A stretch of 64,000 nt of DNA from Sanghuangporus weigelae (Eukaryota > Basidiomycota > Agaricomycetes > Hymenochaetales > Hymenochaetaceae): NCBI GenBank assembly GCA_033182465.1, contig CP137319.1, positions 2,852,001 to 2,916,000 on the forward strand. Direction: 5' to 3'. A program made the translations under genes and the position numbers. Shown piece by piece: positions 42,095 to 59,551 of this stretch (positions are counted from its first letter, which is position 1; every line of letters begins with the position of its first letter). The notes beneath the pieces were generated by a model. It ran no database searches and was not told the DNA's origin. It saw only the letters and a list, made by a program, of their open reading frames with translations.

Positions 42095-42577
42095 CACAGC
42101 GGGCAAACTGTTATTTAGACCCAGAATAAATTCATAACTAGATTACAAATGAAATTTGAAATTTAGTACACAAAGAAATTACAAGTAAAGTCATGTGAGA
42201 AATGCATAAAGAAATTTAAAATCTCATAAAGAAAAAGATGCTTGCATTTCTCCACGTGCGATATTTAAAATTATTCCAACGAAGGAATTTGAAGTTTCTT
42301 TTGTGATCTTGTCAAGGAAGAAATAACTTGTGCAGTCAATGAAAGTTATTTCTTCCTTGACAAGATCACAAAAGAAACTTCAAATTCCTTCGTTGGAATA
42401 ATTTTAAATATCGCACGTGGAGAAATGCAAGCATCTTTTTCTTTATGAGATTTTAAATTTCTTTATGCATTTCTCACATGACTTTACTTGTAATTTCTTT
42501 GTGTACTAAATTTCAAATTTCATTTGTAATCTAGTTATGAATTTATTCCGGGTCTAAATAACAGTTTGCCCGCTGTG
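42095..42577. repeat. Near-perfect inverted repeat, 234-bp arms, 15-nt loop
   Basis: Arms 42095-42328 and 42344-42577 match with one visible mismatch (CCCAGAAT against CCCGGAAT), with loop TGTGCAGTCAATGAA. Both sides are flanked by TAT. Ends CACAGCGGGCAAACTG. An RNA copy would fold into a long stable hairpin. Confidence 0.92.
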
Positions 42578-43748: not shown

Positions 43749-43880
43749 TTACTGCCTTTTTCATAAGTATTGTCACACCCGCGTTTCACGTGCTCTGACG
43801 CGTCCGAGCCAAAACAGCAAAAACTCAAGTAAATGGCGATTTTCTCTGTCAATTCTGCATGTTTCATGCCCAATTAGCAC

Positions 43881-45498
43881 TCAAAAAAACGAGCTAGTTC
43901 GCCCATGTAGATGTATGTAGAAATATTTGTGATTTGTTGCCTGTGTGTGTCGGAACAAAACAAACAACTTCACCGAGCCGTGCTCCAAAGGGATATCTGG
44001 ACTGCTCGCAATATTATTCCTCCTCACACAAGCCATAATATATTTTCCCTCTGATCCGTAAATTAAGTCTATAAACATGGCACTGCTCTGGCGAAGTTTC
44101 GTGTCGTTTTGTGCAGTGTTTGTGTGGGAAACATCAGGCAATTTCGTCAATCCTTGTTCCAGCGGGTCATCTGGACTGTTCAAAAAATCATTCCTCTTCA
44201 CACAAGCCAGTCATAGTTTTTCTCTTGATCTGTAAATTAGGTCTATATGCCTTGCAATGCTCTGGTAAGGTTTTCGATATGTTCCGTGCAGTATTTGTGC
44301 AACAGTGCAAGTGTCTTTTGTCTCCGCAGCATTCTCAGGACCCCTTTCTGGTGCTGCAACTGCCCCGGGACTGTCATTCGAAGGCAACAAATCCCAAACT
44401 TGCTTGTATCTGAAGAAATCATTATAGTATTCATTCCCTATGCTCGATGTGGTGCTTCTATTTATGCAATCTACGAGAGGCTGTGGCTCACTCCTACCTG
44501 CATCGATTTCCGCACCTTTCCAACACATCCTGCTTCATCACAATGCTTCTCCGTCGCAGCCAGATAGCATCTCTAGTATGCATGAGCAGAACGAGGGACA
44601 GTGAATGCCATGGTGCTACGGGTGACAGTACGGGATCGACGCAGTCCAGAGATGCAGTCAGACAGCAAATCCGGCGGACCCACCGTCAATTCCGCTCACA
44701 ATCACAGACACCCGGCTGCACCTTGACATACTTCTCTTTCCTTCCCCGTTGTCACCACAGTGGGTCATCCCACCTATCTGACCTTATTTCAGCTGCGCCA
44801 AAGAGGTGAGAAGCAGCAAGCCAGGTAAGTAGCACGTACCTTAGCGTTTGCGACTGTACCGTATCCACTCACCATTCAATGGTCAAGCAAGTGATGGCGC
44901 CAATGGTACCGCTATATCCTGTGCGAACATCGTGGCCATTGCAATCGAACTTTCTCTAACAGAGCCTCCGAGTCCAATCGCCGCACATTCCATCGGCTGT
45001 AAGTCGATCTTCTATTTCCACAGGCCTCTTGGGCCCTCGCGCATGCTCTGCCCAGAATAAAATCTGCAGCAAATGAACCATTGCCGTTATGGTCGTCTGC
45101 TTTCTCCATTTGATTCGCCAAGTAGGCCTTCTTTGTCTGTGACAGAGATGCTCTTCCGATGCTCCTGGAAGAGTCGGATGTGTTGCAAATAGCGACAGCT
45201 TACCAGGCTCCGCACGTCTTCGTGCGATCTCAGATACAGGGACAGGAAGTCTGCATCAGCACCGATAGCGGAGAGATGAGATAGGGATGAGAAGAGACAT
45301 ACCGAAACCGATGAAGCAAGAGGATGCCACAGGGACACGAGACAGCAACAAATTCGGTGCATGCAAAGCACCTGGATTGAGCCACACAGGAGCTAGCTCA
45401 TGGTTTTCGTAGACGCACTCAGCCGCCCTCGTCTGCAATGAACGAAAAGGTGTATCTGGACCAGTCAAAGCCGCCTGAGCATATGCATCATCATACAT
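43881..45498 (-). CDS. Passenger gene of the left arm, unknown function
   Basis: Inverted copy of the gene at 57803-59420 with the same start MYDDAYAQAALTGPDTPFRS. A one-base indel relative to the right copy changes the last codons after EHGSVKL. Exon structure is not resolved. Described under the right copy. Confidence 0.5.
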
Positions 45499-47340
45499 GT
45501 AACTTCACCCAGGTTCCCACTAGCCAGATATCATTCTGTTTTGTATCTATTGCCGCCGGGAATCTGTTCAGACCTACGGGAATAATCCATTTGAGCCACC
45601 TCCAGAGCTGCCAACAGTGCGTGGAGGAGCCAAAAGACACACGACAGACAGACATGGATGTAAACCAAAGAGAAGTGATGATTACGGCACGTGCGTCATG
45701 CTGTGAGTGTGAGTGAGTGTGTGACGCCTTTCTGCTTTTGGCATAACCACCATGACCCGTGGAAAGCCTCTCTCAAATGATGCCCGACAGATCATACAGA
45801 ATCTGTTTGAGGCCAAGGAGTTTAGCGTAAATCATCTTTCCGCTCTGACGGGCATCAACCGCCGGACAATATTCCGCATCAACCAGCAGGTTCAGGAGAC
45901 TGGCAGTGTCGAGAGAGACGGTTCACAGACAGGAAGGCCAAGGATACTGGAATATCCGGATGTCCATGTGAGCCCTCTGAGTGTATTGTCGCCTGCTGAG
46001 CTGCTCATTGTGCTGTCAGTATCTACTCAGTGCCGTCGACTTCCATAGGGATCTGTTTCTTGATGAACTTAAGAACATGTTAGGCGGAGCGTCTGGTAAA
46101 TTCGTCTCGGATTCAACGGTATGGCGGACACTAGAGCGCGGCTTCACAATGAAGAAGGTGCGGCCTTCTTTGGCATGCAAAGATGTTCATATCTATCTGA
46201 CCAAGTCCAGATCACGAAGAAAGCGCGAGAACGAAGCGAAACTGCGCGAATAGAATACCGCCTCAAGATAGGCTCGCAATACACCCCTGAGCAACTCGTA
46301 TTTGTCGATGAGAGTGCCTGTGACCGTCGAACCTTCTTACGAAACAAGGCGTGGGCCTTGCGTGGCCATCACGCTGAAACTCCTTTGTGCGTTCTGATAC
46401 CGGACAGGGAATATAAAGTTCGAGGGGCTGCCCTAGAATACCTTTGAGTAGTTAGCAGAGAGATACACCTAGACCAAAGGCAAGTGGAAATGAAGGGATA
46501 ATGGAATACACGAGAGAAGGGTTGTATGAGGGCTGAGGAATGCGCGGGAAGTGCTCGAGGAAGGGTTCCGAGGATGGGCTTCTCCCGAGATTGATGGTGG
46601 CGGTGCGAAGGCTAAATCGACTCTCCGGCTCAACTGCGAGCTCTGGACTAAAGCCGACTAACACAAGGCACAAGAACTAATCTAACTAATGCTACGCTAG
46701 TCGAACCACCAACTCGAACGTGACTAATCGACCGTGCTAACACACTGGGAAGCGACGGCAGCCGATCTCACTCGTAGTCTAAAGTGTCGGAACGCGGCGT
46801 AACGATTCGAAACGCGATACGATGGGCGGAGGACAATAACTGAAAGGATCCGCTCAAAAACTCGCATCAGGATCGATGCGATCAACAGATCTATATGATC
46901 AGCTTCCCAAACGCGACCGGTAACCAAGCCAGCTATCACGGGCCCAAGCGATCGAGCGGCCTAGGCAACAGTAACCCGTTACCACCCGAGCGCTAGAAGC
47001 ACTGAAGCGGATACGTAATCCTGCTAACAGCTAACACCGCCGACCGCCTATTACCGCGGACTACCACTCTAACGCCGCCGACCAAGTAACCCAAGCGACC
47101 TCGACCAAAAGAAGCGATCAAACTTCTTAGAAGTCCAGAAGCACAACTACTAAAGCCTAAATGCTAAAAGGCTAAAGGCTAATAAGGTTTATGGAGACCT
47201 CACTGGCATTTCAGCACTGTCAAGTCTGTGCACGAGTTTACATGGTCCTTTATGAAGTATACTACATAGTATGCACGGCAACAGTTGGTACGCGTGACTG
47301 TCACATTGAAACCGAGCGACACCTTCAAGATACAATGCAT

Positions 47341-47832
47341 TCCAATCCACCAAACCCAATAGTACCCAAGAAACGAGAGGAACTCACAATCACAACTCGA
47401 ACCCCTCGAACTGCGAACCCGATAACTTGGAGAATGATTGGATGGTATAGACTGGAGTTGCACACACCATGTCCAGCATCTACGATACAGGCAAACCTTT
47501 ATTTACCAAGAGATGCGAACCTGGAGACCAAGCAATTACAACTCCTTATACAACAAAGGATATGGCATTACATTCGAGACATACGATATGAAGGCAAAGC
47601 ATGGCTAGTCACCAGAACCCAGCAGAACCCGCCAGCAGAGCTTATGCAGTTCATGATATGCCTTGGACCATACTCTACACCAACCCGACACCTTAACACT
47701 GACGTGCGAGTTATGCTTACCCTTGCTGGACCTCGAGATGAATTCCGAAGAATCACATACCGAGCAGCCTACATCACTCCAAGAGCAAAGATGCCACTCA
47801 ATGACAGCAATGACATCGTTATGGAGTACTGA
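47341..47832 (+). CDS. Unknown protein encoded by the insertion
   Basis: The frame is open from 47191; the start MHSNPPNPIVPKKREELTIT at about 47335-47341 is a reasonable choice. It has no domain I recognise; it contains WRMIGWYRLELHTPCPASTI and LLIQQRIWHYIRDIRYEGKA. Codon pattern looks coding. It could belong to the mobile element that brought the insertion. Confidence 0.35.
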   Translation, partial: SNPPNPIVPKKREELTITTRTPRTANPITWRMIGWYRLELHTPCPASTIQANLYLPRDANLETKQLQLLIQQRIWHYIRDIRYEGKAWLVTRTQQNPPAELMQFMICLGPYSTPTRHLNTDVRVMLTLAGPRDEFRRITYRAAYITPRAKMPLNDSNDIVMEY

Positions 47833-49251
47833 CAGTGGAGCATTCCACATTGGAACACCACCTCTATTGTCTCAGTCAGCAACTCCACAGAATTCTGTCA
47901 TAGTGGAGACGACCTTACAAAGATTGGAGCAAAAGTGGAGCAAAGCGCAGCAGGATGACAAAGGAACAGATGTAATGGTGGAGAAAGGTGGAGAAAAGTG
48001 GAGTAAAGTGGAGACAGGATGAGTAAGAAATAGGACGGAAAATGGAATATCTGGGAGCATAAATAGTTGTAGGATTAGGCCCTCATTGCCCCATCTTTCG
48101 ATCCTCTTAACACACTGGTGTAAAGTCCTAACTAGACTATTACTGTGTGCTTTGTACTATCACGCCTCTTGGAAATCCCAATCTGCTTTACTATCACCTC
48201 GTATCTGAAAGCATCCATAACTCGGACAGCGACTAAGAAGGCTAGTAAGGGACCGCGTGGTACAGCCAGACGTGGGTAGATAAGATCACCTCTGCACAAC
48301 ACACCGCTGCTTAGGCAAAAGGATCGAACCGGTGTAACCCCGGGCCTACTCCCTAACAATAACTGAGTGACCGAAACGTGATATGAGAGACGGAGGGGCT
48401 ATGCGGTGATAGAAGGGGATGATATGGTGTCCTTTTCCGACGACAGTGGAGAAGGGAAGGTGTTACGAGACCGAAAGCGCGCGGCACGCTAAGTAACTGG
48501 GTTACGGGCGAAACCAGCGAAACAGATCGGAACTCGCGAGGAGGTTTCGATACGGATGATAGAGACAAGAGAAGTCCTTTACACGAACACGGCGAACTAT
48601 ACGAACGTGCGAACGGCTCTGCTGCGAAGAGAGGTCACCGATTGACTGTACAGAACACGAAATATCGTATTTTAGACTTAGGAGATGAGAGAGTCCACTA
48701 CGAACAAGTAGAACTCGGAGCTGGGGGACTTGAGATGGTGTGAGAACTGCTAAGCTCCAACTCCACTGTCCCCCCACTACGAGAGTCGTGCTAAATTTAT
48801 ACTAAACGTCCAAACTGAGCCTCCCATCGGTCAGAAAACATAAGCCATAAGAAAAGGGGAACGCATATCACTTATCTACTAAGGAGAGGGGCGCATATGA
48901 ATGGTTAAGGGACACATAAAACAGAAAGAAACAATACTAAGCATGGTCGGAACGAGAGCATAAAGAAATAAAAGGGACGCATATAGAAAGGTGAGATCAT
49001 AAGCAAAGCCTTCGGAACCGGGTGTCTTTGAGCGGAACGAGTCGGAACTTGGGGAAAAGACTTGGAAAGACCTCTGCTAGCCTTACAGGGCAAATCTGCG
49101 ACGTTTTGAATGGGAGAGGGACTGTGGACGACGCTGCAGGGTCAAATCTCTTTGTCAGGAGTACGGATCCGGGATCCGGAGACTTGTGATTGACGTGTGT
49201 AGGATCGTCGCATGATTCTTCCGCCGTGTCTTATATGATGGCCGATCACGG

Positions 49252-51069
49252 TGTAGCGCACTGGCTCCTCCTGTGCCAGTACACTCATACTATGGCTCCC
49301 TCTTACTGCAGATACCATATCCCAGCACTGCCGACACCTGAGAGTGTGAGGGCACACTCCTATTGCACTCGGGACATCATTTGAGCACGTATCCATTGAT
49401 TCCAGCACACATACTGTACTGCGGCGCCCTCCTATGACCCAAATCGATCCGCCGATGGCTCCCCGACACTCAGACAGGTCCGCCGACAGCTCCTACCCAG
49501 CACCAGGCACTATAGGACACATCCCTCAGTGACTACGTGCCGCCGATCTTATGATTTACCATACGTACAGCCGTGCGGCGACTCTGGATGCCTCCGAGTC
49601 GGCCCCCCTTGGCGCCAATCAATGCGGCGGACACTCAGACATCCTCAGGTACCCTCGCCGACGCCTCCTACAGCTTACCAAGCAGTCCCCCATTGTCTAG
49701 GGAGCTATATATTGTCATATGTGCTTACATGCCTCATTACGATGTATCTGCCACCAGTCCGGCAGTCCCCCACAGCACTGCCGCTCCGGCCACTCATATT
49801 AGTCACTAGGGATCGCCCACACTCTGTATTGAGTGCCGCCGATGCATCGGACACCTCAGGGACATCGGCTGATGCGCCCTTTGTCTCATATACGCGATAT
49901 CAGCCTCCAATCATCGGTTCCGATGTTTCCCGACTTCCCCCCGATGCGGCGGCCCCCATTAGACCATGTATGGAAGGTAGGCATGTGGTACATCGGCGTG
50001 CCAAGCCACCGACTCGCGCCGCCAAGCCCAACTCCGCCGGCGCCCGTGTTATTGCAGATACTCAATATTTCATGTGATTGGATGCCCCCCTCACGTTGCC
50101 GCTCTCAGATTTCACCTGGGCGCTCCGGCAGCGGCCCTTGGCGACCCAGATGACTCAGGAGATGTTGTCAGACAGTAGGATGTGTCGGCGACAGCAGTAG
50201 AGTATATATAGAGCTTATACTAGCTTGTAGACGACAGGATTCCAAGCCTAGCAAGGATTCCAAGAGCATGTACCAGACTGAGCGCCAGAGTTCGAGATAT
50301 CCCTCACTCTGAGTCTCCCCTCATGTACTGAGCCTCCCCCTTGACTATATACTATCCTTGACATCTCCTCTTGTTTGACTCCACATTCTACTTGCCTTCG
50401 CCGCCTCCGGTATGCCTCTGCCGCTCTGACGTTCAGTGAGTGAGTAGGGCTTGGGATTTAACCCTGAGCCTCCTCCCCACACTTTATACCTGTCCGGCGC
50501 CCCTCTATTTGACATCGGCGACCCTTCGGCGACCCAGGCTTCTTATCAGACTCCCCTTCGGCGTCCTTTCCAGCCTTTCACTCCAGTTTATCCCATCTAT
50601 TGATCTTATACGGTCTTTTCCTTTCATCTATCGCGTTTACGCTACTTCGGCAGATTTGTGCAGCCTCCCCCTCAATCCGGCACCCCTCTATTCGACGTCG
50701 GCGGCCACCTGGCGACCCAGCCTTCCTATCATACACCCCTGCAGCGCCCTTTCCAGCCTTTCACTCCAGCTTAGTCCATATATTCATCTTATACGGTCCT
50801 TTCTCTCCATCTATTGTGTTTACGCTACATCGGCAGCCCCCTGTGATCCCCCCTCTCAAGCGGCGGTCCTGTTATCCTATTCCCTTTATCCAGCGGCATC
50901 CCTAGACCCATCCATTACGTCTCCGACGGTTCCTGGCACCTGCCGGGTAGTAGGTCTTTGATAGTCTGATAGCGTCGGCATCCCATTTTTGGAGGTCCCT
51001 TCATACATTCAGCACCCTTAGTAGGACGGACATCTGTAGCACCTTCAGATACGACACCGCCGACCGACA
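49252..51069 (+). mobile_element. Solo LTR, family 2, copy B
   Basis: An 1818-bp unit with the same TGTAGCGCACTGG start and CCGACCGACA end as the copy at 17323-19106, flanked by the duplication ACGG (49248-49251 and 51070-51073). It sits inside the 4.85-kb insertion and so entered after or with it. No internal coding region. Confidence 0.8.
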
Positions 51070-51930
51070 ACGGAACGGTGCACGTGCCATTTAGACTATG
51101 GCGTTCTTGCTAAGTCCACTCACTCCAGCGAAACCAGTCGGAACCGGGCGAAACCAGTCGGAATACCGCGGAACTGGTCGTAATGACTTTGTACGCTCCC
51201 AAGCTTTAGTCTTACTCTTCAACACTACTCGGAAACAGTTCTTTGCTAGGGGAAAAAGGTGTGCTGCGTTACGTTCATTAAATTACACGAGCCGGAACTC
51301 AATTCGCATAGGTATTTGGTTCTTCCCGCCATCTCTCTGGATGGGATGCTTGAATGCGTTATCATGGAAGGCTCGTTCAATGCGGACTCCTTTGCAGCGT
51401 TCATCAATACTCTCCTGGACAGCATGCAGCCCTGGCCATTGAGAAACTCGGTCGTTATCATGGACAATTGCTCTATTCACAAGTCCGATGAGGCACGCCA
51501 ACTCATTGAATCCAGGTGAGACGGTCTTCCTGCTGGGTCATCATGCAGGCTATTCATCGTGCCGTGTCTGTTTAGGGGCATGAAGCTTGAGTTCTTGCCG
51601 GCATACTCTCCTGACTTCAACCCAATCGAGCTGGCGTTTTCGTTGCTCAAATCCCGACTTTGGCGCATTCCTCTACCAGAGGGTGGAGGTGATGCCACGG
51701 TCTACGACAGGCTTTATGGAGAGGTTATGTCAATCGGTGTGGCTGACTGCTGCGCCTTCTATGAACACTGTGGATATGGTTGGTGTGTGGTTTGTTTTCT
51801 GATTGATCGGGAGGGATAACTGATTTACATTCTATGCTATTACCGCGACTATAGGTGAATGTGGTTTATATATGTAAGCAACTATGTTTATCTATGAGCT
51901 AGATTGAATCATAGTGCAGTCTTGTTCTGC

Positions 51931-52264
51931 ATAACAAATGTGTCTAATGACTTCTGAGGTATAGTAACATCAAAAATCAATTCAAGATGCTTAATTTGAG
52001 AAGACATTGTGTACACTTATATTGTTTATTGATTCGACTCTCAAGCTCATACAGATAATTGAATTCCATACATAGCCACCCTTCATTTCTCTGCGTGCTA
52101 AAAGGATAACAGGTAAAAACTGAGAAACATCGAAATAGTATCACAAGTAAGTAATCGTCTCGGCAGACTCAAATCGAACACAACTACAATGATCAAGGCG
52201 AGCGTGACAAAATAAACATAGGTATCAAACAATGAGCCAACCACATACATCAAATATATTCTTC
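51931..52264. other. Start of the composite's unique centre
   Basis: Short AT-rich stretch after the left arm, downstream of the minus-strand centre gene. Nothing else seen. Confidence 0.3.
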
Positions 52265-53756
52265 CTACTCAAATCTTCCTCGCATGAAATCGAAAATTTC
52301 TAACAACCCACTCCTCTTCGTGAAAGGTGCCGTGACGGTGCTCTCGTCGAAGCGATTTGTTTTGTCTATAGCCTGATTCCAGGCAGCCAGCTTGTCCTCA
52401 TCGAAGTTGATTGGAATTTGGATGCCATGAGCAGTGACGCTTCCCATATCCCGCAGATCCTCTCCACCGACGAGAACATACCAAATGACTTCCGGCTTCT
52501 CGAGTAGCCGGTACACAAACTGGACGTAATTGAGGTATAGTCCTAGCGACTCTGTTGTCAACGTCCGTTTAATGTGGTCACAGACGTATTTGACTTCCTT
52601 CTTGAATTTATCTGCGTTGAAAGGGCTTCTTTCTGTAATCTGCTGGTTCCTCATAACAGAAAAGAAACAACTCATGCCGCTCCGCCATGCCTGGACCGCT
52701 TCCGTATCCAACTTCGGCAATCTCTTGGATTTAGGAACGGCAGCCGGAACGTTGTCGAGAGAGCCCTTCGCCACTCTTGGCCACCATCGATCCCACATGT
52801 TGGTATCAAAATGATTTTTGCCTGAGGTGAATGGCGCGAAGTAATTTTTGTCCGATGCAGTTGACCCAGCCTTGCTAATAGGCCCAGACCCAGAACCAGA
52901 AAGTTGTGATGCGACTGACATCGGTGAGAGGAGTAGCCCAGCTGGCGTTCCTGGCGTTCCTGGCATTCCTGGCATTCCTGGCATGGCTGGTGTTCCTGGC
53001 ATGGCTGGTGTTCCTGGCGTGGCTGGTGTTCCTGGCGTGGCTGGTGTGACTAGCGCAGCCAGTTGCTTCAAACTAAGGATTGTTGTCTTGGGTTTGGAAA
53101 TGTATGGTCTGATCGATTTATCGTCATTGCCATAGAACAACCTTGCAACAAGCTGGCGGATACTCTGCTCCTCGGATTGCAAGAACCACTGAAAGAAGTG
53201 ATTCAAGAAAAAAAACAATCCTTGCACAAAACATTGTCGTCCTCCGTCGATTATTTGTCTTCGAATGATTGCATGATAATCGGGGGCGGACTATGAAAAT
53301 GAATAAGCACTCTCTTCGAAAAGGGAAAGAAGTTTCATACGTTATAGCTCAAGTATTTTTCCACGGACTGCACTCGACCTTGCAAATTGTTTTGATTCTG
53401 AGCTCCGTCCTTAAGCTTTACGTCGTGGTCCTCAATCTTTATGTGGTGATCCTGGCTTCTTGCCATCAAATTGTCTATACTGGCCTGCATCTCCGCAATT
53501 TTCATTTCAAGCTCCACTCGCTGTCTGGAAAGTTCGGATTTCCTCTGCAATGCCAGATTAAAGAATTCACTTGCATGGTGTGCAAAGCGCTTCTTCGTGG
53601 GACGGTTATATCGCGCCTGATCGCTCCCATCACCCATTATATTATTGACAGCGCTGTACATTTTTTGTCTGGTCTCCGCTGCAGAAATAGTCATCAGAGT
53701 GATGGTCAAAACGATATGGCAGACAGCGACATACAATCTGAATCAATCTCTGACAT
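52265..53756 (-). CDS. Unknown protein with coiled coil and collagen-like P-G-T/M-P-A repeat
   Basis: The start at 53756 gives MSEIDSDSETRQKMYSAVNN. The first intron begins GTATGT after GATT. The N-terminal half is strongly helical and charged (LQRKSELSRQRVELEMKIAE, LQGRVQSVEKYLSYN), consistent with a coiled coil. After another intron come LNHFFQWFLQSEEQSIRQLV, then a run of about ten triplet-like units (PATPGTPAMPGTPAMPGMPG) at 52933-53044, and a C-terminal domain with FNADKFKKEVKYVCDHIKRT, VIWYVLVGGEDLRDMGSV and SGLLEIFDFMRGRFE. I do not recognise the family. It is divergent from the AT-hook gene, with about 560 bp between the starts, as in a two-gene module. Confidence 0.65.
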
Positions 53757-54313
53757 TTCAAAAACTTTTTCCACCCCCAAGAGCCGGTGTCTGGGGTACG
53801 CGTACTGCGACATTTCAACAAAAATTCTGAGATCAGATATCGAAAACCTCAGGGATGGAGGAGAGGGAAGTGGGAGGACTGATGGGGGTGGGGACTTTGG
53901 GTGCCATCGCTCACCTATCTCATATAATGGGAATGCGGTGAGAGTTAGAAGCGATCGGAGGCAGTCGAAAGTGCTTTTCTTCCCGCTGGGAGAATATATA
54001 GTGCATGAGAAGCGATATCATCTCCGATGTCTCATGTGGCACTTGAACGTTTAGTAGAATTTGGAAAGTCGGAGTTTCAAGCGGTCAAAATCAAGCGACA
54101 TCTGATAGAACTCTATACGGGGTCCTTTGGTCTTTGGAAGGGAGGATGGATCCTGAACGAACGCACCACAGAGGAGCTCTACAACACGAACCAGTAGACT
54201 TGTCTGCCGTACATGGGCGGATCACGAGCAGCATTGAACCGAACTGCAAAGCGAAAACCATGTTTTGCATTTTTTTCTCAGGTTCAGGTTGATTCCTTCG
54301 TACCATCATCAAC
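53757..54313. other. Shared upstream region of the two centre genes
   Basis: Contains GAATATATAGTGC at about 53993-54005, a possible TATA element, and no gene I trust. It probably drives both divergent genes. Confidence 0.35.
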
Positions 54314-56257
54314 AATGCCTCCTTCTCGCAGCAAAAAGCTCACTGAAAAGGCCAAGGCAACCCAGGACGCCGAGGCCCTTAAGAACGAGCCAAAGGTCAG
54401 GAGGGGTCCTGGGCGACCACGCAAAAACGATAAAGCGCCGGCAACTCCGGAAACGCCACAGAAGAGCCCTCGCAAGAAAAAGGGGAAAGGCCCGTCGAAA
54501 AAAAAGGTGCATTCCTAGTGCGGGTGGCGCTCAAATTGGTACTGACACCTCTCCTCAGTTGCGCAATTCTGATGATACTATTGATTCGGATGATGATGAT
54601 AACTCCGACGACGACTACCAGCCAGATGGAGACCTATCTGTCAATGACGTGGTGCAAGTCGCAAATAAAACCGGCCCAGACGAAACAACACAGTATAGGG
54701 AAGAACCGGACTTCTCCATACTAGAATACGAGCAAGTTGAAGGTGAGCGCTATTAGCTACCATCCCAATGATGAAAGGAAGGCTTATCATCTATCAAAGC
54801 AAATAATGACAGCATTTCGTTTGGAACGGCCGCGGCTCGGGGTCTCCTTGACCCCATCACTTCAACTCCCGCAAGGAGGAAAGACCCTGTTACTTCAACT
54901 CCCGCTGTACGGAAGAGCAAACGCGACACTATTACTGTGAAAGTCTTGGTTTCCGATGGGGTTGGCGGATGGGAGCTGCTTCTAAGTTCCGACATGTTCC
55001 TGCATGAGGTCATATCCGAAATCACGGATCTGACACGAGGTTCCTGCACCATTTCCCGCCTAGGCGTTGAAGGTCCATGGTGTAGGAAAGAAGGCCCAAA
55101 CAAGTATCTTCCGGAGTATCTTGATACCCAAGCAGCATTGAATAAAATTTTCGATGAGGTACGCAAGCACCGGAAGGAACAGAACAAAAAGAAGACAAAT
55201 GCGCCCGATCCCAAAATCATTGTCAGAAATCTTCCTGGGTTTGATGTTTGTCCACGTGAAATCTCATTTATCTATCTCATTTGACTGGACCGATCTTTAC
55301 AGGACACAAATGCAACGAAGAAGAAGGGAAAACAGGCAACGGCAACAAAATCGGCGCCCGCACAGCTCAATGATGCTCAGGACACCTACAAGGAGTCTAT
55401 GGCCAAAATTGCGGCCAAATTGGAAGCAAGTTTCAAATGTGACGAGCACGGACGTTTGTGTGCAAGATTACCAGGTGCACGCAACCATATTACATACACC
55501 CATCGGGATATTGAAGAACATGCAAGACTACTTGTGAGTGGGTTGCCAATATGCTGTGTGCTTTTCACACATATGCTTCTCAATCTAGTACCGGAATGTC
55601 CCGGGTGTAACTTACGATGCTCCGCCTGAGGCACTTAAACTTCTAGATCAGAAGCCTCTGGATTCATACTCAGCCAGAGCTGCTATCGAGAGGATCCCAA
55701 AATCATCCGCTCCCGCGTTTAGTCCATCTGAAGCAGGACAGCCACTGACCCAACCAGCCACCCTTGGTATACAAACAACGCCTGCAGAGCCATCCACAGT
55801 TGCAGCACAGCACCCGCCAAATATGCAATTCCCGGGTTTCATGCACCTGGCAATAATCCAACAAGCACTGTCCTCAATGCAATTCCCATCCATGATGCCA
55901 CCCATATACCCATTCATGATGCCGCCACTGACCCCTATGCAGCTTCCGTTCATGGGACCAGCTGTGCATAATAATGCAGCTAGGAGAAGACCCAGAGATT
56001 GGCCACTGGTTGGCAATTGGCTTGAGTCTCTCCATGACGACATCGAAAGGGGCAAGGAACCATGTCCTCCGTATCGTACATTTCGCGAACCATTCGAAAA
56101 GAGAGGCTACCTTCGACTCGACGATATTCAACACATCACCAAAGAAGAGCTGCAGGAGATAGCCGATGCGGACAATTTAGACGTGACAATCGGGCTCATT
56201 AATCGGATTCTTCGCTACGCAGAACAAGACTGCACTACGATTCAATCTAGTTCATAG
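54314..56257 (+). CDS. AT-hook protein of unknown function carried by the composite
   Basis: The start MPPSRSKKLTEKAKATQDAE leads into an AT-hook (RRGPGRPRKNDK) and a Lys-rich stretch ending GKGPSKKK, so DNA binding in the nucleus is likely. Next come an acidic run (IDSDDDDNSDDDYQPDG), VKVLVSDGVGGWELLLSSDM, RLGVEGPWCRKEGPNKYLPE, a Lys-rich part, CDEHGRLCARLPGARNHITY, a Pro/Met-rich segment (FPSMMPPIYPFMMPPLTPMQ) and a C-terminal RDWPLVGNWLESLHDDIERG, YLRLDDIQHITKEELQEIAD and NRILRYAEQDC, which looks like a SAM-like helical domain. The CDEHGRLC part may bind metal. Four or more introns. The last 13 codons are also present at the inner end of the left arm. Confidence 0.7.
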
Positions 56258-56329
56258 ATGAACATAGTTGCTTATCTACATAAACCACATTCACCTATAG
56301 TCGCGGTAATAGCATAGAATGTAAATCAG

Positions 56330-57549
56330 TTATCCCTCCCGATCAATCAGAAAACAAACCACACACCAACCATATCCACAGTGTTCATAGAAGGCGCAGC
56401 AGTCGGCCACACCGATTGACATAACCTCTCCATAAAGCCTGTCGTAGACCGTGGCATCACCTCCACCCTCTGGCAGAGGAACGCGCCGAAGTCGGGATTT
56501 GAGCAACGAAAACGCTAGCTCGATTGGGTTGAAGTCAGGAGAGTATGCCGGCAAGAACTCAAGCTTCATGCCCCTAAACAGACACGGCACGATGAATAGC
56601 CTGCATGATGACCCAGCAGGAAGACTGTCTCACCTGGATTCAATGAGTTGGCATGCCTCATTGGACTTGTGAATAGAGCAATTGTCCATGATAACGACCG
56701 AGTTTCTCAATGGCCAGGGCTGCATGCTGTCCAGGAGAGTATTGATGAACGCTGCAAAGGAGTCCGCATTGAACGAGCCTTCCACGATAACGCATTCAAG
56801 CATCCCATCCAGAGAGATGGCGGGAAGAACCGAATACCTATGCGAATTGAGTTCCGGCTCGTGTAATTTAATGAACGTAACGCAGCGCACCTTTTTCCCC
56901 TAGCAAAGAACTGTTTCCGAGTAGCGTGATGGTCATGCAAGGCCCACACCTTGTTTCGTAAGAAGGTTCGACGGTCACAGGCACTCTCATCGACAAATAC
57001 GAGTTGCTCAGGGGTGTATTGCGAGCCTATCTTGAGGCGGTATTCTATTCGCGCAGTTTCGCTTCGTTCTCGCGCTTTCTTCGTGATCTGGACTTGGTCA
57101 GATAGATATGAACATCTTTGCATGCCAAAGAAGGCCGCACCTTCTTCATTGTGAAACCCGCGCGCTCTAGCGTCCACCATACCGTCGAATCCGAGACGAA
57201 TTTACCGGACGCTCCACCTAACATGTTCTTAAGTTCATCAAGAAACAGATCCCTACGAAAGTCGACGGCACTGAGTAGATACTGACAGCACAATGAGCAG
57301 CTCAGCATGCGACAATACACTCAGAGGGCTCACATGGACATCCGGATATTCCAGTATCCTTGGCCTTCCTGTCCACGAACCGTCTCTCTCAACGCTGCCA
57401 GTCTCCTGAACCTGCTGGTTGATGCGGAATATTGTCCAGTGGTTGATGCCCGTCAGAGTGGAAAGATGATTTACGCTGAACTCCTTGGCCTCAAACAGAT
57501 TCTGTATGATCTGTCGGGCATCATTTGAGAGAGGCTTTCCGCGGGTCAT
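56330..57549 (-). CDS. Tc1/mariner transposase, DD34E, right-arm copy, apparently whole
   Basis: Cut-and-paste transposase. The start at 57549 gives MTRGKPLSNDARQIIQNLFE, a helix-turn-helix region (SVNHLSTLTGINHWTIFRIN), a GRPRI hinge, then the DDE domain: first Asp in EQLVFVDESACDRRTFLRNK, second in NSVVIMDNCSIHKS, Glu in LEFLPAYSPDFNPIELAFSL. Thirty-four residues separate the second Asp and the Glu, so DD34E. Four introns are visible with normal borders, for example GTGAGC...TCAG after PDVH and GTGAGA...TTAG after LIESR. No stop or frame break was found in the spliced reading, so this copy may be active and could also move the broken left copy. Confidence 0.88.
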
Positions 57550-57802
57550 GGTGGTTATGCCAAAAGCAGAAAGGCGTCACACACTCACTCACACTCACAG
57601 CATGATGCACGTGCCGTAATCATCACTTCTCTTTGGTTTACATCCATGTCTGTCTGTCGTGTGTCTTTTGGCTCCTCCACGCACTGTTGGCAGCTCTGGA
57701 GGTGGCTCAAATGGATTATTCCCGTAGGTCTGAACAGATTCCCGGCGGCAATAGATACAAAACAGAATGATATCTGGCTAGTGGGAACCTGGGTGAAGTT
57801 AC

Positions 57803-59420
57803 ATGTATGATGATGCATATGCTCAGGCGGCTTTGACTGGTCCAGATACACCTTTTCGTTCATTGCAGACGAGGGCGGCTGAGTGCGTCTACGAAAACCA
57901 TGAGCTAGCTCCTGTGTGGCTCAATCCAGGTGCTTTGCATGCACCGAATTTGTTGCTGTCTCGTGTCCCTGTGGCATCCTCTTGCTTCATCGGTTTCGGT
58001 ATGTCTCTTCTCATCCCTATCTCATCTCTCCGCTATCGGTGCTGATGCAGACTTCCTGTCCCTGTATCTGAGATCGCACGAAGACGTGCGGAGCCTGGTA
58101 AGCTGTCGCTATTTGCAACACATCCGACTCTTCCAGGAGCATCGGAAGAGCATCTCTGTCACAGACAAAGAAGGCCTACTTGGCGAATCAAATGGAGAAA
58201 GCAGACGACCATAACGGCAATGGTTCATTTGCTGCAGATTTTATTCTGGGCAGAGCATGCGCGAGGGCCCAAGAGGCCTGTGGAAATAGAAGATCGACTT
58301 ACAGCCGATGGAATGTGCGGCGATTGGACTCGGAGGCTCTGTTAGAGAAAGTTCGATTGCAATGGCCACGATGTTCGCACAGGATATAGCGGTACCATTG
58401 GCGCCATCACTTGCTTGACCATTGAATGGTGAGTGGATACGGTACAGTCGCAAACGCTAAGGTACGTGCTACTTACCTGGCTTGCTGCTTCTCACCTCTT
58501 TGGCGCAGCTGAAATAAGGTCAGATAGGTGGGATGACCCACTGTGGTGACAACGGGGAAGGAAAGAGAAGTATGTCAAGGTGCAGCCGGGTGTCTGTGAT
58601 TGTGAGCGGAATTGACGGTGGGTCCGCCGGATTTGCTGTCTGACTGCATCTCTGGACTGCGTCGATCCCGTACTGTCACCCGTAGCACCATGGCATTCAC
58701 TGTCCCTCGTTCTGCTCATGCATACTAGAGATGCTATCTGGCTGCGACGGAGAAGCATTGTGATGAAGCAGGATGTGTTGGAAAGGTGCGGAAATCGATG
58801 CAGGTAGGAGTGAGCCACAGCCTCTCGTAGATTGCATAAATAGAAGCACCACATCGAGCATAGGGAATGAATACTATAATGATTTCTTCAGATACAAGCA
58901 AGTTTGGGATTTGTTGCCTTCGAATGACAGTCCCGGGGCAGTTGCAGCACCAGAAAGGGGTCCTGAGAATGCTGCGGAGACAAAAGACACTTGCACTGTT
59001 GCACAAATACTGCACGGAACATATCGAAAACCTTACCAGAGCATTGCAAGGCATATAGACCTAATTTACAGATCAAGAGAAAAACTATGACTGGCTTGTG
59101 TGAAGAGGAATGATTTTTTGAACAGTCCAGATGACCCGCTGGAACAAGGATTGACGAAATTGCCTGATGTTTCCCACACAAACACTGCACAAAACGACAC
59201 GAAACTTCGCCAGAGCAGTGCCATGTTTATAGACTTAATTTATGGATCAGAGGAAAAATATATTATGGCTTGTGTGAGGAGGAATAATATTGCGAGCAGT
59301 CCAGATATCCCTTTGGAGCATGGCTCGGTGAAGTTGTTGTTTTGTTCCGACACACACAGGCAACAAATCACAAATATTTCTACATACATCTACATGGGCG
59401 AACTAGCTCGTTTTTTTTAG
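57803..59420 (+). CDS. Passenger gene of the right arm, unknown function, divergent from the transposase
   Basis: The start MYDDAYAQAALTGPDTPFRS lies 254 bp from the transposase start on the other strand. The first exon continues NHELAPVWLNPGALHAPNLL, then DFLSLYLRSHEDVRS and later CWKGAEIDAGRSEPQPLVDC. The 3' part has a module present at least twice: QSIARHIDLIYRSREKL, CVKRNDFLNSPDDPLEQGL, then SSAMFIDLIYGSEEKYIMAC and VRRNNIASSPDIPLEHGS. A TGA follows the first REKL, so either an intron or a mutation lies there. No family recognised. Conservation between the arms is due to recent duplication and does not by itself show selection. Exon borders are unsure. Confidence 0.5.
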
Positions 59421-59551
59421 TGCTAATTGGGCATGAAACATGCAGAATTGACAGAGAAAATCACCATTTACTTGAGTTTTTGCTGTTTTGGCTCGGACGC
59501 GTCAGAGCACGTGAAATGCGGGTGTGACAATACTTATGAAAAAGGCAGTAA

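Follow-up and report, generated by a model that had tools for sequence, protein, structure and literature searches.

A probable Tc1/mariner element with very long terminal inverted repeats that enclose its transposase gene, and two further genes between them

Background

Tc1/mariner elements are the textbook minimal transposons, with one gene, short ends and no helper. Here we describe a locus of another build in Sanghuangporus weigelae. Within a stretch of 64,000 nucleotides, which was analysed as a whole and is called the window below (C2:2852001-2916000 of a 33.87-Mb, 13-contig genome), two long inverted arms, each with a DD34E transposase gene, surround a centre that carries two further genes, A and B. 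An original prediction took this arrangement for a composite built on Tc1/mariner arms. We consider it very likely that the locus is instead a single IS630/Tc1/mariner mobile element with very long terminal inverted repeats (TIRs), cut at its outer ends as a unit of ~11 kb, with arms homogenised by conversion and with A and B travelling along.

Several described systems come close, and the comparisons that follow hold for the portions of the cited papers that were consulted. TBE elements of the ciliate Oxytricha carry a Tc1/mariner transposase and two further open reading frames (ORFs) under purifying selection between terminal inverted repeats (PMC4724952, PMC12242761), and accessory proteins have been called surprising for Tc1/mariner (PMC12242761). 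A TBE element has one transposase, a 22-kDa ORF, a 57-kDa zinc-finger/kinase ORF and an ANT target duplication (PMC4724952, PMC12242761), whereas the element described here has two transposase copies. Sardine and Thon of Paramecium likewise have long TIRs, of 500-700 bp, a flanking TA and transposases of the Tc1/mariner type; these TIRs are about 5-7 times shorter than those found here and are not described, in the portion consulted, as holding the transposase (PMC3408717). Tc1-OP1 of Ogataea is, like this element, a fungal Tc1 with extra coding capacity, presented by its authors as the largest IS630/Tc1/mariner element reported and the first nonclassical Tc1, but its extra domain shares one ORF with the transposase, and its authors excluded a composite (PMC9977792). 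The nearest composite-like case, KolobokP, is a eukaryotic DNA transposon of another superfamily with long terminal repeats and a second gene; its repeats are direct, measure about 450 or 660 bp, each have their own ends and flank a central transposase (PMC9587614), whereas the terminal repeats here are inverted. Galileo/Foldback elements, of the P-element superfamily, share the unusually long terminal inverted repeats, and the description consulted does not place a transposase within them (PMC3688188). Two further papers (PMC9674265, PMC12477816) held no matching architecture in the parts consulted, and in the open-licence literature, a scope outside which Repbase lies, we found no description of a palindromic Tc1/mariner element with transposase in both arms.

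Architecture and copies of the element

Between positions 43749 and 59551 of the window, two inverted arms (3.34 kb, 97-99% alike) surround a 4,272-bp centre at 51939-56210 (Table 1). The arms align as inverted matches of 43749-43963 with 59337-59551 (99%), 43958-46140 with 57161-59343 (99%), 46140-46375 with 56923-57158 (98%) and 51222-51938 with 56211-56927 (97%). An insert of 4,846 bp (46376-51221), flanked by a near 5-bp duplication (ACGCT/ACACT), interrupts the left arm; it was rejected as a component of the element because it has no counterpart in the right arm or in either arm of a second copy on contig C10. The left arm is thus split by a later 4.85-kb repeat, and the element proper is about 11 kb: the palindromic unit that had been predicted stands, but the 15.8-kb size given for it includes this secondary insert.

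The unit is repeated in the genome. At C10:99652-110774 lies a clean copy of 11.1 kb that shares ends and centre with the window copy; a further copy, from C2:2693017 onward, is cut up by other repeats and has its centre in the opposite orientation; and C1:3294017-3310253 is an arms-only copy, its middle filled by other repeats and one terminus lost. An arm fragment with one end, whose edge is cut off by another repeat, is found on C12. A search with the arm gave nine matches longer than 1 kb, eight from the four copies (window, C10, C2 and C1) and one from the C12 fragment. The original prediction had asked whether the centre genes always lie between such arms. The centre has four matches in the genome, three of them between such arms (window, C2 and C10) and the fourth of 35 bp; the centre genes were not found at a fixed host locus without arms. 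The clean C10 copy, together with the interrupted copies elsewhere, indicates that the element spread as a unit, as had been conjectured.

Ends and target site

The outer ends read TTA/CTGCC...GGCAG/TAA, with TA on both sides, in agreement with the TA-compatible ends originally proposed. The window has just two matches to the 23-bp terminus, 43752-43774 (+) and 59526-59548 (-), against none in 100 shuffles, and in the C10 copy the terminus is likewise confined to the two outer ends. Genome-wide it has 82 matches at up to three mismatches (reversed control, 0). Seven are exact, all of them ends of the large-element family (one on the C12 fragment), and TTA precedes CTGCC at 7/7 of these, with differing DNA outside. 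The remaining 75 ends make up 31 facing pairs less than 5 kb apart and 13 unpaired ends; 28 of the 31 pairs are spaced 755-764 bp apart, and the other three are longer. These short elements resemble miniature inverted-repeat transposable elements (MITEs) and, in the five that were read, share only about 28 bp with the large element. Across 20 loci cut out for the terminus search, T stands before TA at 21/21 ends, of which 7 are the exact ends and 14 come from 7 MITE-like elements.

One MITE-like element with nearly the same ends, its 28-bp end differing from that of the large element at 1 base (L043, C10:1658001-1662600), is enlarged to about 4 kb and lies inside a gene that is Copia-like, as judged by eye from its translation. 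Its filled site reads ATTA-element-TAAACC, and 7/7 matches without the element read ATTAAACC; the target of this element is TTAA with TA duplicated.

Concerted evolution of the arms and origin of the palindrome

The outer arms evolve in concert. They are 98.9% (window), 99.2% (C10) and 98.8% (C1) alike within a copy, and 94.3-96.8% alike between these copies. Informative sites of the outer arms group arms of the same copy rather than arms of the like side at ratios of 63:1 (window/C10), 64:2 (window/C1) and 104:0 (C10/C1). The differences between the outer arms within a copy are mostly transitions, with 20/29, 15/21 and 13/27 in a CpG context.

The right arm takes in the last 47 bp of gene B, and the left arm thus holds a mirrored scrap of B beside gene A. 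In the simplest reading of this layout, the left arm would have been copied from the transposase/B side. In family II, treated below, the arm ends short of its B relative, so its boundary differs from that of the large element.

Coding content

The right-arm transposase gene, open over 327 aa in its exon model, matches PF13358 (DDE_3) at E = 1.4e-30 (106.5 bits against a cut-off of 28.6) and has the spacing D-83-D-34-E, with 34 residues separating the second D from E. HTH_Tnp_Tc3_2 reaches 17.4 bits, under its cut-off of 31.5, and the best match in a PDB search was Sleeping Beauty at E 0.071. The left arm holds the mirror copy, split by the insert, so that the predicted pair of inverted arms with DD34E transposases is borne out. 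Transposase gene and gene B converge, their stops ~14 bp apart, and introns in the gene models measure 52-76 bp.

Gene B carries an AT-hook motif (GRPRK), read directly in this plus-strand gene of the 4.3-kb centre as the original prediction had it, along with a C/H-containing stretch and a weakly SAM-like C-terminus. It is open in 3/3 copies with 0 stops. Its ratio of nonsynonymous to synonymous rates (dN/dS; estimates throughout rest on small counts) is 0.25 (window/C10), 0.52 (window/C2) and 0.49 (C10/C2), and we regard it as constrained. A SAM fold was also tried through a PDB profile search, which returned nothing convincing (bacterioferritin best at E 0.087, an Eph receptor chain at E 1.7).

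Gene A had been called coiled-coil/collagen-like. A coiled-coil-like start is apparent by eye and a P-G-T/A-P repeat is present, but homology to collagen was rejected (Pfam Collagen 11.3 bits against a cut-off of 27.2, E = 0.29), and Pfam gives nothing above cut-off for this gene. Its dN/dS values are 0.47, 0.80 and 0.59. Neither A nor B has a kinase or zinc-finger match in Pfam at E up to 5.

The divergent passenger gene predicted in the arms fares unevenly. ORF 59100-59417 shows dN/dS of 0.10, 0.25 and 0.21 in three comparisons with no stop, which speaks for it; the neighbouring ORF 58773-59087 shows 0.53, 0.18 and 0.30, with two stops in pairs with the left arm of C10. A 187-aa query from the right-arm ORFs has 8 matches, all in arms of this family, but 8/8 contain at least one in-frame TGA, so the passenger exon model is provisional. 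A third candidate, ORF 57930-58211, was dropped (dN/dS 0.73-0.84 with a stop, no family match) and is probably non-coding.

Related families with the same layout

The search with the transposase gave 193 matches, of which the 150 listed cluster into at least 66 loci, and that with B gave 50 matches in 33 loci (36 matches define the loci and the remaining 14 are further exons of loci already counted). Among the matches listed, all 33/33 B loci lie within 6 kb of a transposase locus, and neighbouring transposase loci less than 16 kb apart are facing in 16 cases, diverging in 3 and tandem in 3, one of the tandem pairs being the split left copy of the window. At least 16 facing out of 22 has a binomial probability of 3.5e-6 under random orientation, with the reservation that copies of the same family are not independent events. 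Also among the matches listed, facing transposases, up to 28 kb from each other, enclose 16 of these 33 B loci, and the other 17 stand outside such pairs.

At C6:819794-828873, family II shows arms that measure at least 1,575 bp and are 98.5% alike, with a B relative and a divergent coiled-coil-like gene. The arm boundary has no TA on its right side, where the flank resembles family IV DNA by eye, so the arm length given is a minimum. The centre of family II also holds two short imperfect inverted repeats (L068, 3712-4506 and 5160-5786).

Family IV comprises 32 arms, of which 4 are unpaired and the other 28 make up 14 facing pairs with members less than 40 kb apart; the arms were collected with queries of 1,000 and 700 bp (40 and 36 matches, leaving out three 61-bp matches and merging pieces), and the ends of this family lie beyond the 1.7 kb read. 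A B locus is found inside 11/14 facing pairs. The query copy on C12 has arms identical over 1,000 bp (100%), while other full-length matches are 92-98% alike.

Family III is of a simpler type: among the matches listed, 15 loci have a lone transposase with the end of a B relative at most 300 bp away and no facing partner. At L050, L052, L055, L059, L061 and L062 the transposase is convergent with the B relative and the locus is not palindromic; six family III loci are 94-98% alike over most of 3.5 kb and carry a divergent coiled-coil-like gene. The B genes of family I (that of the large element), II and III are homologous (E about 1e-18 for the C-terminal part), and those of family IV are linked by tblastn at E about 1e-6 to 1e-3. 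Two more facing transposase pairs, seen as coordinates only (C2:1699766-1711283 and C13:1480756-1501478), may represent another palindromic family.

Proposed mechanism and alternatives

We propose that a DD34E transposase made from an arm would bind the ~28-bp outer ends, excise the whole ~11-kb unit and join it into a TTAA site, duplicating TA. Since the transposase gene lies inside the inverted repeat, each complete element would hold two copies, and exchange between the arms (gene conversion) would keep these nearly identical. Gene B, with its AT-hook and SAM-like end, would probably act as a DNA-binding, self-associating helper, either of transposition or of expression against host silencing, with gene A as its predicted partner. 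A broader proposition, which we hold tentatively and with some doubt, is that these elements form a distinct eukaryotic Tc1/mariner lineage that is normally palindromic, with the transposase in the inverted repeat, its copies kept identical by conversion, and the AT-hook/SAM-like B protein as a co-evolved second transposition factor. On this view the ancestor may have been a simpler, family III-like element of transposase plus B, whose transposase end was duplicated in inverted orientation to give the palindrome.

A number of observations weigh against this account. None of the other arms examined has an intact transposase, the copies being broken, partial or truncated: both arms of C10 have the same stop and 1-bp deletion, both arms of C2 have indels, one with a stop, and the left arm of C1 is truncated. 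Over transposase exons 1-3, dN/dS is 0.89, 0.35, 0.41 and 0.26 in four pairs, and given this large spread and the broken copies we treat the activity of the transposase as putative. No relative outside this genome was found with the transposase in a scan that covered viral contigs only. The SAM assignment of B is weak (Pfam SAM E 0.16, none and 0.035 for three relatives), and its single-sequence structure model has a mean confidence (pLDDT) of 50.5. Stops break gene A in two of its three copies (C10 and C2), the window copy alone being open, and the kinship of A between families I, II and III is not established (best E about 0.1-1). Concert is weaker in the inner arms, at 18:3 (window/C10), 12:10 (window/C2) and 17:3 (C10/C2), with only 94.8% identity between the two inner arms of the C2 copy. 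Of the like-side sites of the window/C2 comparison, 9/10 fall within the last 70 columns at the inner edge, a clustering that would fit conversion fading where the palindrome ends; the last three turn up in all the inner comparisons and may belong to sequence beyond the true arm. At the other family II locus (C1:3828706) a second arm was not seen, and C1:3830201-3830400 gave no useful match to family II. The pattern behind the seven empty sites of L043 allowed exactly five bases between the flanks, so that other outcomes were invisible to it. The original prediction had also proposed looking for an empty site of the large element; it was sought in the genome with no match, and the empty site seen belongs to the shorter element.

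The alternative that survives best, though we judge it unlikely, is that the long-inverted-repeat element is now itself immobile, the transposase amplifying only the short MITE-like family and the large copies stemming from rare events or another transposase. The short elements do outnumber the large ones, with most of the non-family facing pairs in the one narrow size class noted above, and the other transposase copies examined are damaged; at least four large copies, a right-arm transposase open over its 327-aa model and the constraint on B nevertheless weigh against this alternative.

Much less probable is a true composite, in which two independent Tc1/mariner elements in inverted orientation carry the DNA between them, in the manner of bacterial IS elements. 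That is what two transposase-bearing inverted copies around other genes would suggest at first sight, and it is what the original prediction named. The terminus, however, is missing at the inner edges of the arms, in the window as in C10; none of the nine arm matches longer than 1 kb is a complete solitary arm; the terminal stretch of gene B is repeated at the inner edge of the arm, which argues that the arm was duplicated from inside the element; and the layout recurs in families II and IV. Arms without inner ends make this one element with very long TIRs. Least likely of all is a non-mobile segmental inverted duplication, a palindrome of the host chromosome with transposon remnants: such palindromes also homogenise their arms by conversion, and most copies here have decayed, but several copies at different sites with identical exact ends and TTA/TAA edges, in a layout common to three families, point elsewhere.

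On the preferred reading of a mobile element with very long TIRs, the locus does differ from a small one-gene Tc1/mariner as predicted, measuring about 11 kb and carrying the transposase twice along with at least two other genes, but it does not stand alone. Facing transposase genes inside inverted repeats occur in three diverged families of this genome (family II in one full copy), and four families carry a conserved helper-like gene. We read these families as a lineage of multi-gene, often palindromic Tc1/mariner elements, in which the chemistry is ordinary and the body plan is unusual. If B is needed for transposition, this would be a multi-component Tc1/mariner branch outside the ciliates. 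The palindrome also offers a natural test of concerted evolution, which may spread working and broken alleles alike, as the lesions shared by the C10 arms illustrate. Annotation pipelines could easily break such a unit into a 'mariner', an 'unknown gene' and a 'repeat'.

Feature coordinates and further observations

The features of the element are collected in Table 1, where the stop of the left-arm transposase gene is the position expected from symmetry with the right arm.

Table 1. Features of the palindromic element and its insert, in window coordinates.
Feature	Position	Strand	Remarks
Left target TA	43750..43751		T precedes at 43749
Left inverted arm, outer part	43752..46375	+	Opens with the 23-bp terminus CTGCCTTTTTCATAAGTATTGTC; 98.9% inverted match to right arm over 2,626 columns
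Left-arm passenger ORFs	43881..44528	-	Mirror of 58773-59420
Left-arm transposase gene	45752..51878	+	Exons 1-3 open as far as the insert 46376-51221, which splits the gene
Multicopy-repeat insertion, outside the element proper	46376..51221		Junctions set against the uninterrupted right arm; copies elsewhere
Left inverted arm, inner part	51222..51938	+	Mirrors the gene B 3' end in its innermost 47 bp
Gene A	52265..53694	-	423-aa model, two exons (53694-53379, 53220-52265)
Gene B	54315..56257	+	573-aa model, five exons
Right inverted arm	56211..59548	-	Shares its inner 47 bp with the end of gene B
Right-arm transposase gene	56272..57549	-	327-aa model, six exons, DDE_3, D-83-D-34-E
Right-arm passenger ORFs	58773..59420	+	Internal repeat of ~174 bp
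Right target TA	59549..59550		A follows at 59551

The insert in the left arm has TG..CA-like ends without direct terminal repeats, and its ~470-bp end (46372-46843) is found alone at about 30 listed places. Just outside the element, at 42095-42577 of the window, lies a near-perfect foldback whose 235-nt arms are 100% complementary around a 13-nt loop, with ends CAGCGGGCAAACTG.

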